Shown one piece after another: positions 49,595-53,069 of a stretch of 64,000 nucleotides of DNA. The stretch is taken from assembly GCA_947462535.1 (NCBI GenBank), contig CANHPN010000001.1, forward strand, positions 124,001 to 188,000, given 5' to 3'. The stretch's first letter is position 1, and each line of letters opens with the position of its first letter. A program made the translations under genes and the position numbers. The notes beneath the pieces were generated by a model. It saw only the letters and a program-made list of their open reading frames with translations, was not told where the DNA came from and searched no databases. The DNA comes from Akkermansiaceae bacterium. Lineage in GTDB: Bacteria; Verrucomicrobiota; Verrucomicrobiia; Verrucomicrobiales; Akkermansiaceae.

Positions 49595-50473
49595 TCAAGA
49601 AAGCTGCCGCGCGGCTTGCAGCGTGTTTTTCATCAGCATCGCGATGGTCATCGGGCCAACGCCGCCGGGGACGGGGGTGATGGCGGAACAGAGCGGGGCG
49701 ACTTCCTGATAGGCGACGTCGCCGGTGAGGCGGTAGCCGGATTTTTTCGAGGGGTCCGGGACGCGGTTGATGCCCACATCGATGACGACGGCGCCGGGCT
49801 TCACCCAGTCGGCCTTGACCATTTCCGGGCGGCCGACGGCGGCGACGAGGATGTCGGCGCGGCGGCAGATGGCGGGCAGGTCCTTGGAACGCGAGTGGGC
49901 GATGGTCACCGTGGCGTTGGAAATTTTCGAGACTAACAAAAGCGCCATCGGTTTGCCGACGATCATGCTGCGGCCAATGACGACGGCTTCCGCGCCGTTC
50001 GTGTTGATGCCGGAAACTTCGAGCAGTTTCATGCAGCCGGCGGGCGTGCAGGGGACGAAACCGCTCGGGTCTTCGAGCACGAGCTTGGCGACGTTTTCCG
50101 GGTGGAAGCCATCGACGTCCTTGCGCGGGTCGATCTCGCGGATGACGGCTTCCTCATCGATGTGCTTGGGCGGCGGCGACTGGACGAGGATGCCGTGGAT
50201 GGCGGGGTCGGCATTGAGATCGCGGACAACCTGGAGCAGCTCCTCCTGCGTCGTTTCCGCCGGGAGTTCGATTTTGAGCGAGTGGAATCCGAGCTCGGCG
50301 CAGGTGCGGGCTTTCGAGCCGACATAGACTTGCGAGGCGGGATCGCTGCCGATGAGCACCACGGCGAGGCCGGGCTGGATGCCTTTTGTTAGCAATTCGG
50401 CGGTTTCCGCGCGGCACTCGTCGAGCACGGCGGCGGCTACGGATTTTCCATCGAGGATTTTCGGGGAGTTCAT
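49595..50473 (-). CDS. folD: methylenetetrahydrofolate dehydrogenase / cyclohydrolase
   Basis: Interconverts 5,10-methylene-, methenyl- and 10-formyl-tetrahydrofolate for one-carbon metabolism. The 292-aa protein has the catalytic [15 protein letters not shown] (Lys of Y-x3-K), [24 protein letters not shown] and the closing [19 protein letters not shown]. It lies downstream of the DUF374 acyltransferase gene on the same strand (12-base gap), so it is likely last in a short operon. Confidence 0.96.
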
Positions 50474-50485
50474 GGGAGAAAGTTT

Positions 50486-51157
50486 TCAGGCGTCGTCGGT
50501 GCCCGCTAGCAGGATCGCCTGGACCCGCTCGCGGTAAGTTTCGAAGGCAGCTTCATCGAGCTTGGGCGGAACGACAAGCATCTCGTCGAAAATGACGGTG
50601 ACGCGGCTGAACGGCTTGGGGATCACCAGGCGGTCCCAGGTTTTCAAGCGCCACGCGGAGGAATACACCGCATGAATCGGAATGATCGGCGCGCCGGAGG
50701 ATTCTGCTAGCTTGATGACACCGGCATGAAATCCATATCGCGGGCCGCGCGGCCCGTCGGGCGTGATGCAGACGTCGAGCCCGTCCTTGAGCGCGCGCTT
50801 CATGCCGATCAAGGCCGCGACCGCCCGCCGCGAGGACGAGCCGCGCACCGCGCCGATGCCGAACACGGCCATCGCCCGGGCCAGGATCGCCCCGTCCTTG
50901 CTCGCGCTGGTTAGGACGACCGATTGCCGGAAGTTCCCGCCGGTCCGCCACCAGATCGGCGGGATGGTGAAAATCCGGTTGTGCCAGAGTGCGAAAATGA
51001 CCGGGCCGAGCGGATCTTCCGGGCTGGTGACGCCGCAGCGGTCATGGACTTCGAAGCGCAGGGTCTTGGCCCAGCAGCGCATGAACCAGCCCGTGAGCGA
51101 GCCGAGGATTTCCGCCTTGCGGTCTCCACGGATCTCGGTGTTTTTGGTTCCGCTCAT
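50486..51157 (-). CDS. lysophospholipid acyltransferase-like protein (DUF374)
   Basis: Predicted acyltransferase of the DUF374 family, related to LPLAT enzymes that acylate lipid A or phospholipids. The 223-aa protein has the short motif ALWHNRIFTIPP, SASKDGAILARAM, then RGSSSRRAVAAL and TPDGPRGPRYGFHAGVIKLA. No clear membrane helix except weak segments. The ATG (51155-51157) overlaps the TGA of the upstream truncated FGGY-like gene, so translation is coupled. folD follows. Confidence 0.88.
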   Translation of the reverse strand: MSGTKNTEIRGDRKAEILGSLTGWFMRCWAKTLRFEVHDRCGVTSPEDPLGPVIFALWHNRIFTIPPIWWRTGGNFRQSVVLTSASKDGAILARAMAVFGIGAVRGSSSRRAVAALIGMKRALKDGLDVCITPDGPRGPRYGFHAGVIKLAESSGAPIIPIHAVYSSAWRLKTWDRLVIPKPFSRVTVIFDEMLVVPPKLDEAAFETYRERVQAILLAGTDDA

Positions 51158-51417
51158 CAGTTAGATTGAAGGAAAGCCGCCGAGTGAAGGGTGTCCACGA
51201 GGTATTGCTGGCGGGACATCAGCTCCTGATACATCTGCCGCACCGCGCGGGCCACCGAGTCGATCCATTGCGCCGGGTTTTGCTCGCGGTAGCCGGCCGG
51301 CAGGCCTTCGATCGAGTCATGCGGGACCAAGGCCTCGGCTCGAATGACCGCGGATTCCAGATCCAAGACCACGGCGCGGTTGCCGCCGTGACCGATTTCA
51401 ATCCCCAGGAAGTGCAT
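51157..51417 (-). CDS. short FGGY-kinase-like N-terminal protein, likely truncated
   Basis: An 86-aa product with the N-terminal features of FGGY carbohydrate kinases (xylulokinase type): FLGIEIGHGGNRAVVLDLES (phosphate-loop region, although His replaces the usual Thr/Ser) and GLPAGYREQNPAQWIDSVARA. The remaining 400 residues of the family, including ATP-binding and catalytic Asp, are missing. The stop codon overlaps the acyltransferase ATG. It may be a remnant kept because it drives translation of the next gene, or a small functional protein. The start (MHFLGIEIG) is set by the family. Confidence 0.65.
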   Translation of the reverse strand: MHFLGIEIGHGGNRAVVLDLESAVIRAEALVPHDSIEGLPAGYREQNPAQWIDSVARAVRQMYQELMSRQQYLVDTLHSAAFLQSN

Positions 51418-51531
51418 GATCGTTGTTGGCGTCCGCCGGGCGAACGGCGTGAGTTTCGCCACGCCAAGCTCTTTGACAAGTCCCGCCGTGTGGCGTTTGA
51501 CACGTTTTGCGGATTCGGATAGTTCACCTTC

Positions 51532-52290
51532 ATGAACGACACGCTGCAGGACGTCTGGTTTTACACACGCGAAGGAGGGCGGATCGGGCCGGTCACCTTC
51601 GCCGAGCTGCGGGTCAAAGTCGCCGAAGCCGCCCTCAACCCGCGCCTCGACATGGTCTGGACCCACGGCATGGCCGAGTGGAAACCGGCGGGCGAAATCG
51701 AAGGCTTGTTCGAGCGGCGCACGCCGGTCGAGCCTTCGCCAAGCCTCGCCGGCGCGGCCGATCCCTACACCCCGCCGCAACAGGAATCGCCGGAAAATTT
51801 CATGGCCAAGGAAGGCGGTTGGCCCGGCGCGCGGCGGCGCAGTTTCATCATCGCCACCCTGGTTTTCCCGTTCTTGTGGGCCCTGGCATTCGCTGCGGCG
51901 ACTCCTTTTCTAACGTCGGAGTTCGGTCCGGACATCATGAAAATCGCTGCGATCGGAGCGAATTTGATCCCTTTCATCGTGGGCCTCTATTTCGGACTCC
52001 AGCGCCTCGTGAACCTCGGAATGAGCCGTTGGTGGTATCTTGGAAATTTCGTGCCCTTCTTGAATTTCTGGGTCGGCTACCGTTGTTTCACCTGCCCCGC
52101 CGGATACGCCCATCACAGGAAACTCGACGGTCCCGGCGTCTTCCTCGCCATCGTTTACTGGCTGCTGATCGCCATCGCCCTGCTGGCCGTCGCCGCGGTG
52201 GTCGCCCTGATGCTCGGAGCCATTGGGTCGCCTGAAATCCAGCAACAAATCCGTGACGCCGTCCGCGCGGCGTCCGCGCCCAAAGCGTGA
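51532..52290 (+). CDS. GYF-domain membrane protein
   Basis: A 252-aa protein with an N-terminal GYF_2-type domain (VWFYTREGGRIGPVTFAEL through WTHGMAEWKPAGEI), a Pro/Ala linker, and four hydrophobic segments in the second half (about 102-125, 140-160, 165-185, 205-235). GYF_2 domains are common N-terminal peptide-binding modules in this phylum. Function unknown. The promoter lies in the 114-base gap to the divergent truncated gene. The TGA overlaps the GTG start of the MenH-like gene. Confidence 0.82.
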   Translation: MNDTLQDVWFYTREGGRIGPVTFAELRVKVAEAALNPRLDMVWTHGMAEWKPAGEIEGLFERRTPVEPSPSLAGAADPYTPPQQESPENFMAKEGGWPGARRRSFIIATLVFPFLWALAFAAATPFLTSEFGPDIMKIAAIGANLIPFIVGLYFGLQRLVNLGMSRWWYLGNFVPFLNFWVGYRCFTCPAGYAHHRKLDGPGVFLAIVYWLLIAIALLAVAAVVALMLGAIGSPEIQQQIRDAVRAASAPKA

Positions 52291-53069
52291 TCCAGTATTC
52301 CAAACAAGCCGACGAGCGCCGCGAGGCCGGGCCGATGGAATGCTGGTGCCTGCACGGCGCCGTCGGCATGGCGGCGGACTGGCGCGGCTTCGCGAAAAAC
52401 CTGGCCGCCGCCGCGATCGGCTCGCGGGCGGTGGACTTGTGGCGCTTTCTCGAATGCTGCCCGCTGCCGCTCCCCGACTTCGCCAAGGCGCTCAACGCCG
52501 AGGCCGGCGGCGAGGTTTTCCGGGGCAGCGGCCGCGCCCTGCTAGGCTACTCGATGGGCGGTCGGCTCGCCTTGCACGCGCTGTTGGAAAAAGACCACCC
52601 GTGGCAGGCCGCCGTCATCATTTCCGCCCACCCCGGCCTGGAAACAGAGCCGGAACGAGCTGCCAGACGAGCCGGCGACACCGAGTGGGCGACCCAGGCG
52701 CTTGCCGGAAACTGGCAGGCATTTCTCGACGCGTGGAACGCCCAGGCCATCCTCGGCAACACTCCGCCGCGCGACCCGCAAGCCTCTGGCAGCCTCGTCG
52801 CGCGCCGCCGCGAGATCGCCCGCAGCTTTGTCGATTGGTCGCTCGGCACCCAGCAACAGCTGTGGGAGCGGCTTCATGAAATTAACGTCCCGGTGCTGTG
52901 GATCGCCGGGGAAAACGACCCGAAATTTCTCGCTCTGGCAGAACGTGCGGTCGCGCAAATTCCCCAAGTCACGCTGGCCGTCGCCCCCGGCTCCGGCCAC
53001 CGCGTGCCGTGGGAAGCCGGAAATTGGCTCGCGCAACGAGTCGCCCATTTCCTCAAGTCCGGCCGCTGA
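52287..53069 (+). CDS. menH: alpha/beta hydrolase, MenH-like
   Basis: Likely 2-succinyl-6-hydroxy-2,4-cyclohexadiene-1-carboxylate synthase, an early menaquinone step. The 260-aa protein has an oxyanion-hole CLHGAVGMAADW, the nucleophile elbow GYSMGGRLALHAL (Ser), an acidic segment GENDPKF and the catalytic His in GSGHRVPWE. MenH is assigned from the GYSMGGR form and the late GSGHRVPWE; other alpha/beta hydrolases are possible. The given start is GTG; the ATG at 52335 (MECWCLHG) would give 244 aa and is also credible. Coupled to the GYF gene. menA is at 38.3 kb. Confidence 0.75.
   Translation: MIQYSKQADERREAGPMECWCLHGAVGMAADWRGFAKNLAAAAIGSRAVDLWRFLECCPLPLPDFAKALNAEAGGEVFRGSGRALLGYSMGGRLALHALLEKDHPWQAAVIISAHPGLETEPERAARRAGDTEWATQALAGNWQAFLDAWNAQAILGNTPPRDPQASGSLVARRREIARSFVDWSLGTQQQLWERLHEINVPVLWIAGENDPKFLALAERAVAQIPQVTLAVAPGSGHRVPWEAGNWLAQRVAHFLKSGR

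Follow-up and report, generated by a model that had tools for sequence, protein, structure and literature searches.

The locus considered here raises the question of what a reading frame of 86 codons, which resembles the start of a sugar kinase, represents directly in front of an intact acyltransferase gene. The frame lies in the window, by which we mean the whole stretch of 64,000 nucleotides analyzed (positions 124001-188000 of contig C1 in genome G000, an assembly of 2.82 Mb in 104 contigs that is 95.43% complete), and is internal to a contig of 195,714 bases, away from the contig end (Table 1). An earlier note, made from the sequence, had described it as all that is left of a sugar kinase, its first 86 residues, with an altered phosphate loop (IGHGG), and had considered a pseudogene that survives as a translation leader or a small protein with a role of its own. 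The frame itself is real: it begins with ATG, and its product matches the FGGY_N domain over residues 3-71 (E 2.6e-6), with a score of 27.7 bits that just misses the Pfam cut-off of 28.8. Its stop also overlaps the start of the DUF374 gene as TGATG, just as the note had stated. The product has this partial FGGY_N domain alone, as against the two FGGY domains and approximately 500 residues of a competent FGGY kinase; it carries a glutamate (E7) and a histidine (H10) at the first loop, and the third kinase region with the catalytic aspartate is absent.

Table 1. Features at and around the short reading frame, in window coordinates
Feature	Coordinates	Strand	Basis
folD-type gene, downstream of DUF374 (used for trees)	49595..50473	-	domain match
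DUF374 / LpxJ-type acyltransferase gene, intact	50486..51157	-	PF04028, 88.9 bits against a cut-off of 26.8
86-codon frame, probable relic of a 499-codon xylulokinase-derived pseudokinase gene	51157..51417	-	FGGY_N match; internal deletion relative to sister G001
Readthrough tail: TAA -> CAA, then TCT AAC TGA	51157..51168	-	TAA in G061 and G001
C-terminal remainder, ancestral codons 478-499, MYQELMSRQQYLVDTLH...	51169..51234	-	protein matches and DNA alignment to G001
N-terminal remainder, ancestral codons 1-61	51235..51417	-	DNA alignment to G001
GYF_2 domain protein, divergent neighbor	51532..52290	+	domain match

Searching 59 genomes, G000 among them, with this frame recovered matches in 44 at E <= 1, and in many members of the genus (g1, 73 genomes), including the sister genome G001, it matched the same long gene twice, once at its start and once at its end, about 1.3 kb apart. 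Residues 59-86 correspond to the C terminus that the complete gene encodes in relatives, which rules out that the frame is simply a kinase cut off after residue 86. Alignment of the DNA with the 499-codon gene of G001 showed codons 1-61 joined to codons 478-499, with 1248 bp (416 codons) missing in frame. The last three codons of the frame (QSN) lie beyond the native stop: in both G061 and G001 the final codon is succeeded directly by TAA and then (C/T)CTAACTGATG, but in the window this TAA reads CAA (stop region TAATCTAACTGATG in G061 versus CAATCTAACTGATG in the window). Reading thus continues three codons further as a result of the stop loss, and this is what brings about the overlap with the DUF374 start. 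No second, full-length copy of the gene was found in G000 (95.43% complete). The best explanation of the whole, to which we assign a probability of about 0.85, is that the frame is the relic, left by deletion and stop loss, of a 499-codon xylulokinase-derived pseudokinase gene next to an lpxJ-type gene. The suspicion of a pseudogene has accordingly held up, relatives having a full gene where this copy has lost 416 codons and its stop and shows relaxed substitutions. The earlier note had set a full-length kinase in relatives, indicating recent decay, against the same short form in them; the full gene is present, in large agreement with decay, and the same short form was not seen in other genomes in a search of the genus.

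The deletion can be traced to short direct repeats, given that the G001 gene contains two copies of GCGGCA spaced by 1053 bp and two of AGATG spaced by 195 bp, the two spacings adding up to precisely the missing 1248 bp. Possibly, then, a two-step deletion at these repeats produced the window sequence, a single event being possible as well. Starting from an ancestral site with the 499-codon gene directly upstream of the lpxJ-type gene, 416 codons would have been lost in frame, perhaps first between the GCGGCA copies and then between the AGATG copies, after which TAA would have changed to CAA and reading would have ended three codons later, at a TGA shared in part with the acyltransferase start codon. 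A product without most of the fold could have neither kinase nor pseudokinase activity, and its translation might at most still deliver ribosomes to the DUF374 start. A second genome, G011, displays the 1053-bp step together with a further loss of 56 bp and a gain of 1 bp, and there the frame is broken. A single deletion surely inherited by G000 and G011 can nevertheless only be called possible, since a parallel deletion at the same repeats and recombination give the same picture. When window positions 49595-53069 were compared with the same region in G001, G061, G011 and G091, the trees of DUF374, folD and the flanking genes and the sequence identities were in conflict: in the DUF374 tree G091 is nearest to G000 and G001, and G061 groups with G011 (support 75), while folD groups differently. 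Recombination between close species around the locus is therefore likely, and it clouds both the assignment of changes to branches and the possibly shared 1053-bp step.

The substitutions in the relic fit relaxed evolution. Over 81 codons comparable with six relatives, changes unique to G000 comprise seven non-synonymous and four to six synonymous ones (the latter tallied by hand). The amino acid changes are T13N, W30L, W35S, A54S and D56A in the N-terminal part and P495S and G497A in the tail (full-gene numbering), and all seven fall on residues that are identical in all six relatives. Between the intact genes of G001 and G061, by comparison, the same codons show no non-synonymous and eight synonymous changes (Fisher p 0.013-0.018 against the relic). 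The relic counts fit an omega of 1 (P 0.27, 11 changes) and do not fit 0.05 (P 1.6e-4 to 6.6e-4), with the genus median of 0.17 weakly disfavored (P 0.05-0.12). A hint of constraint might be seen in the first 53 nucleotides of its C-terminal part, which do not differ from those of G001, although the DUF374 gene next to them also shows 96% identity. Few as they are (seven to four to six), the substitutions suggest a relic evolving near-neutrally, under relaxed constraint. A deletion in frame that leaves an open frame has about a one-in-three chance of arising at random, and a functional reading would predict the same.

To place this copy among its relatives we surveyed the genus with a profile of the intact gene, which gave full-span matches in 30 of the 73 genomes, with 29 of these open and one (G073) carrying a stop after 17 codons. 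Relics are present in G000 and G011, the frameshifted one in G011 (L047:4628-5024) retaining an open frame of 131 codons whose TAA lies 3 nt before the DUF374 ATG. Inspection of the sequence upstream of DUF374 in 12 genus genomes without the full gene recovered fragments matching residues 367-418 and 485-498 in G002; other relics may exist. The gene is thus decaying separately in members of the genus (G011, G073 and G002). Two genomes, G030 and G033, have a different, motif-intact xylulokinase, and in the remaining 38 no copy was detected at E <= 1e-20, some of them having other FGGY kinases and several being incomplete. At the site of the pseudokinase, G014 (L072) and G016 (L075) contain frames of 489 and 487 codons, respectively; these were assigned by eye as rhamnulokinase-like, which removes them as candidates for a diverged pseudokinase that had been missed upstream of DUF374.

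These copies bear directly on the proposal that the short frame has been kept because its translation is needed for termination and reinitiation at the TGATG, a role as leader that we consider possible and somewhat doubtful. Such coupling would account for the overlap of the relic stop with the DUF374 start, for the frame in G011 that stays open to 3 nt before the ATG, and for the position of the intact family genes close upstream of DUF374; moreover, in 18 of 20 kinase-bearing loci examined the DUF374 ATG is not preceded by a Shine-Dalgarno-like motif. However, the motif is likewise absent in all six loci without the full gene (one of them not anchored on the ATG), and since it is missing with and without the kinase, its absence is not diagnostic and we set it aside as a test. 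The upstream frame is open in G000 and G011 but not in G073, where it stops after 17 codons, or in G002, where only fragments precede DUF374. Furthermore, a single stop-loss change produced the overlap, and an open frame is expected by chance given so few substitutions.

Far less probable is a functional mini-protein formed by the 86-residue fusion, the conserved tail at its C terminus, RQQYLVDTLH, serving for instance in an interaction. This tail is unaltered in G000, QYLVDTL occurs in 28 of the 29 open genus copies, and a related form is found in g23, g27 and g29; against this, two of the seven changes at otherwise invariant residues lie in the tail and five in the N-terminal part, the native stop is lost, the frame is lost in G011 and the short form is seen nowhere else in the genus search. 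We found no positive evidence for the small protein with its own role that the earlier note had allowed for. Least of all do we favor an artefact of draft assembly: a genome in 104 contigs and a junction explicable by short direct repeats would permit it, but repeats of 5-6 bp are, in our judgement, shorter than those an assembler is expected to collapse, the stop loss and the amino acid changes at conserved sites suggest a gene that was already non-functional, and an overlapping deletion is present in G011.

The relic thus leads to the intact gene, and here the altered phosphate loop takes on a different meaning. The change noted in IGHGG is genuine, but it is no damage peculiar to this copy, since many genus members share the altered state in their intact gene; its attribution to decay of this copy is thereby ruled out. 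In each of the 17 full-length genus sequences looked at first, GIE[IL]xxxx replaces the loop GIDSGTQS, G[SG]xxx replaces GGGDN, P[QLS]RG replaces QQHG and [AQT]GD replaces WCD. In contrast, 18 comparison sequences (16 from outside the family and the G030 and G033 paralogues) keep GxD-GTQS, GGGDN, QQHG and WCD. Across the family (f1, 195 genomes in 16 genera), GGGDN is missing from the sequences examined from g1, g23, g24, g25, g27, g28 and g32, whereas g29 keeps the motifs. The sample comprised 16 of 17 matches from g23, 5 of 9 from g25, 6 of 7 from g29 (one partial) and all those from g24, g27, g28 and g32. Among 58 pseudokinases from seven family genera, counted without the broken G073 and the partial G149, Asp7 is kept in six, Thr10 in two and Asp243 in one, as opposed to 22 of 22 motif-intact homologues for each. 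A single sequence, g27_G104, keeps two of these three residues, and the one keeper of Asp243 appears to be g23_G200, in which the preceding glycines are gone. In a profile alignment to E. coli XylB (PDB: 2itm) the aspartate of GGGDN stands opposite a non-acidic residue; we take this aspartate to be D233 of 2itm, the catalytic base. The residues equivalent to Asp7, Thr10 and Asp243 in SePSK are D8, T11 and D221, and the D8A, T11A and D221A mutants were described as having much lower activity; the corresponding mutations in the xylulose and glycerol kinases of E. coli greatly reduced activity according to the same authors (PMC4880283). With few exceptions, then, the first-loop aspartate and threonine and the catalytic aspartate of a competent kinase are gone, and, judged by these residues, the intact relatives are a group of pseudokinases.

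Of 174 columns that are invariant or nearly so in the motif-intact sequences, 67 persist in the pseudokinases (in at least 90% of sequences) and 32 are lost from them (retained by no more than 10%), the latter including T10, Q11, K14, H83, W101, C102, D243, N244 and T265. Conversely, ten residues have become conserved in the pseudokinases (at least 85% of the 58) that few motif-intact sequences and none of the five from g29 carry: E7, H33, S135, A138, H150, R281, R312, T360, A378 and F453. Q152 is present in one of the five g29 sequences. Several of these residues (E7, H33, H150, R281 and R312) might belong to another active site, so that the intact family would catalyze a different reaction or act on a different substrate; in the region of the old active site, D103 is still retained in 57 of the 58 pseudokinases. 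We regard this as rather unlikely, because residues vary widely at the former active-site positions (11 types at D243 and 12 at T265), as fits relaxation, and most pseudokinases by far have neither phosphate loop intact. The C-terminal residues Q487, Y488, T492 and F498 are common to the pseudokinases and all five g29 sequences, so that the tail seems to be older than the loss of catalysis. With its kinase motifs kept and its tail residues shared with the pseudokinases, g29 offers a natural active control.

Returning to the pseudokinase reading, the intact genes are still under selection. Omega, computed by the simple Nei-Gojobori method over usable pairs of equal length and uncorrected for recombination, had a median of 0.170 in g1 (0.040-0.283, 122 pairs) and 0.275 in g23 (0.032-0.511, 71 pairs) and was 0.169 in g27 (one pair), against 0.042 in g29 (three pairs) and 0.055 in g8 (one pair) among motif-intact sequences; no pairs came from g25, g28 or G030/G033. 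A hand-picked set of 14 pairs had given 0.040-0.096, and the all-pairs values are the ones to quote. By these estimates purifying selection on the pseudokinases is weaker than on their motif-intact relatives but far from absent, and with 29 of 30 full-span copies open and omega below 1 the gene behaves as a pseudoenzyme kept after catalytic loss. In phylogenetic trees g29 is sister to the pseudokinases with a support of 0.755 (FastTree) and 75 (ultrafast bootstrap, 39 sequences), and the family clade as a whole is well supported (0.997 and 100, respectively). Since the support for g29 as sister is moderate, two losses of catalysis are possible and a single loss is not firm.

A predicted structure of the intact pseudokinase was of moderate quality (pLDDT 68.6, pTM 0.70); its input comprised 24 of the 25 loci recovered for the gene and left out L115, in which the frame stops after 17 codons and which is probably the same contig as that of G073. 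The best PDB matches of the model in Foldseek searches were xylulose kinases, the top one being 2itm (E 4.7e-32, TM 0.72, rmsd 7.2), so that on this moderate-confidence model the parent fold appears to be kept. Like E. coli XylB, the pseudokinases have the same length, both FGGY domains (in the two members scanned), the fold and a profile match of E 7.9e-49; unlike it, they lack the catalytic aspartate, the first-loop threonine and aspartate and other substrate-site residues. Two intact genus members score 351.5 and 315.9 bits against the XylB model TIGR01312, below its cut-off of 380.25, while two motif-intact homologues score 554.6 and 537.7 bits, above it. A parallel in logic is yeast Gal3p, a galactokinase paralogue that acts as a co-inducer and belongs to a kinase superfamily other than FGGY; the fold of a sugar kinase persists there in a role without catalysis, which has passed to another protein. 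Gal3p, however, is part of a eukaryotic transcription switch, whereas the pseudokinase is known here from its sequence and its gene adjacency. In that system an ancestral bifunctional galactokinase and co-inducer was split into GAL1 and GAL3 (PMC3048525).

The neighbor itself is informative in this regard. DUF374 is the LpxJ family of late acyltransferases of lipid A, and in LpxJ of R. typhi each of the residues W60, H61, D86, D132, W172 and D173 is described as needed (PMC6148475). The window protein combines the DUF374 domain match with all six residue types, namely W58, H59, D88, D134, W174 and D175 (located by motif rather than by full alignment), and its gene is probably a lipid A acyltransferase gene. 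It differs from the R. typhi enzyme in being known by sequence alone, and in that no kinase-like partner is mentioned for LpxJ in the available portions of PMC6148475. DUF374 lies directly downstream in 62 of the 63 testable family loci, including those of the motif-intact g29 and the broken G073, two further loci ending at a contig edge and standing outside the 63; the family loci share ancestry, so that these adjacencies are not independent evidence. The sole exception is G072 (L198, G072:C81:13000-20000), in which the pseudokinase is intact and no DUF374 is found within 1500 bases downstream. Among 18 motif-intact comparison sequences, eight have DUF374 within about 260 bp downstream, and the pairing is hence probably older than the loss of catalysis. 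Taken together, adjacency and constraint suggest that the intact pseudokinase may be a non-catalytic partner of, or sensor for, the LpxJ-type enzyme, the partner role being the most economical reading.

How the kinase could have become free for such a role is suggested by the distribution of other sugar-metabolic genes. Xylose isomerase is present in 60 of the 73 genus genomes (55 over the cut-off), G000 included, and XylB over its cut-off in four of the 73. Outside the window, G000 codes for a second FGGY kinase (L197:3276-4826; G000:C2:47275-48825) whose best PDB match is 4bc2 (E 6.2e-108), the human xylulose kinase, with 4bc3 being the same sequence (human D-xylulokinase). Relatives of this human-type kinase occur in 135 of the 195 family genomes and 12 of the 16 genera (E <= 1e-80), and with g29 among them its presence alone does not predict catalytic loss. 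This enzyme could have replaced the old xylulokinase and made its catalysis dispensable. As a tentative extension we propose that the FGGY pseudokinase is a dedicated partner or sugar sensor of the downstream LpxJ-type enzyme, which would tie lipid A acylation to carbon status, that it may have shed catalysis once the human-type xylulose kinase covered the need, and that the window species would be one in which the partner has been discarded.

The short gene itself is a case of ordinary decay, and the interest lies in the intact family behind it: full-length, xylulokinase-like FGGY proteins found family-wide that have lost their catalytic residues and yet remain open and constrained beside a probable lipid A acyltransferase gene. 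A search of titles and abstract beginnings, mostly of open-access papers, found no report of an FGGY pseudokinase or inactive xylulokinase, and the words 'inactive', 'non-enzymatic' and 'degenerat' are absent from the accessible part of the FGGY family survey (PMC3245297). If confirmed, these proteins would add to a large kinase family a branch of pseudokinases whose suggested partner can be tested, and they would warn against counting such genes as XylB in metabolic reconstructions.

The intact gene was recovered at 25 loci, 24 of them from metagenome-assembled genomes (MAGs), assigned to Luteolibacter, Akkermansia, Prosthecobacter and unclassified Akkermansiaceae, Verrucomicrobiaceae and Verrucomicrobia. 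The only non-MAG source is Luteolibacter pohnpeiensis (strain KCTC 22041, locus L113), whose intact gene encodes a protein of 498 residues and which comes from a genus that is placed in Verrucomicrobiaceae by the NCBI taxonomy and in Akkermansiaceae by GTDB.
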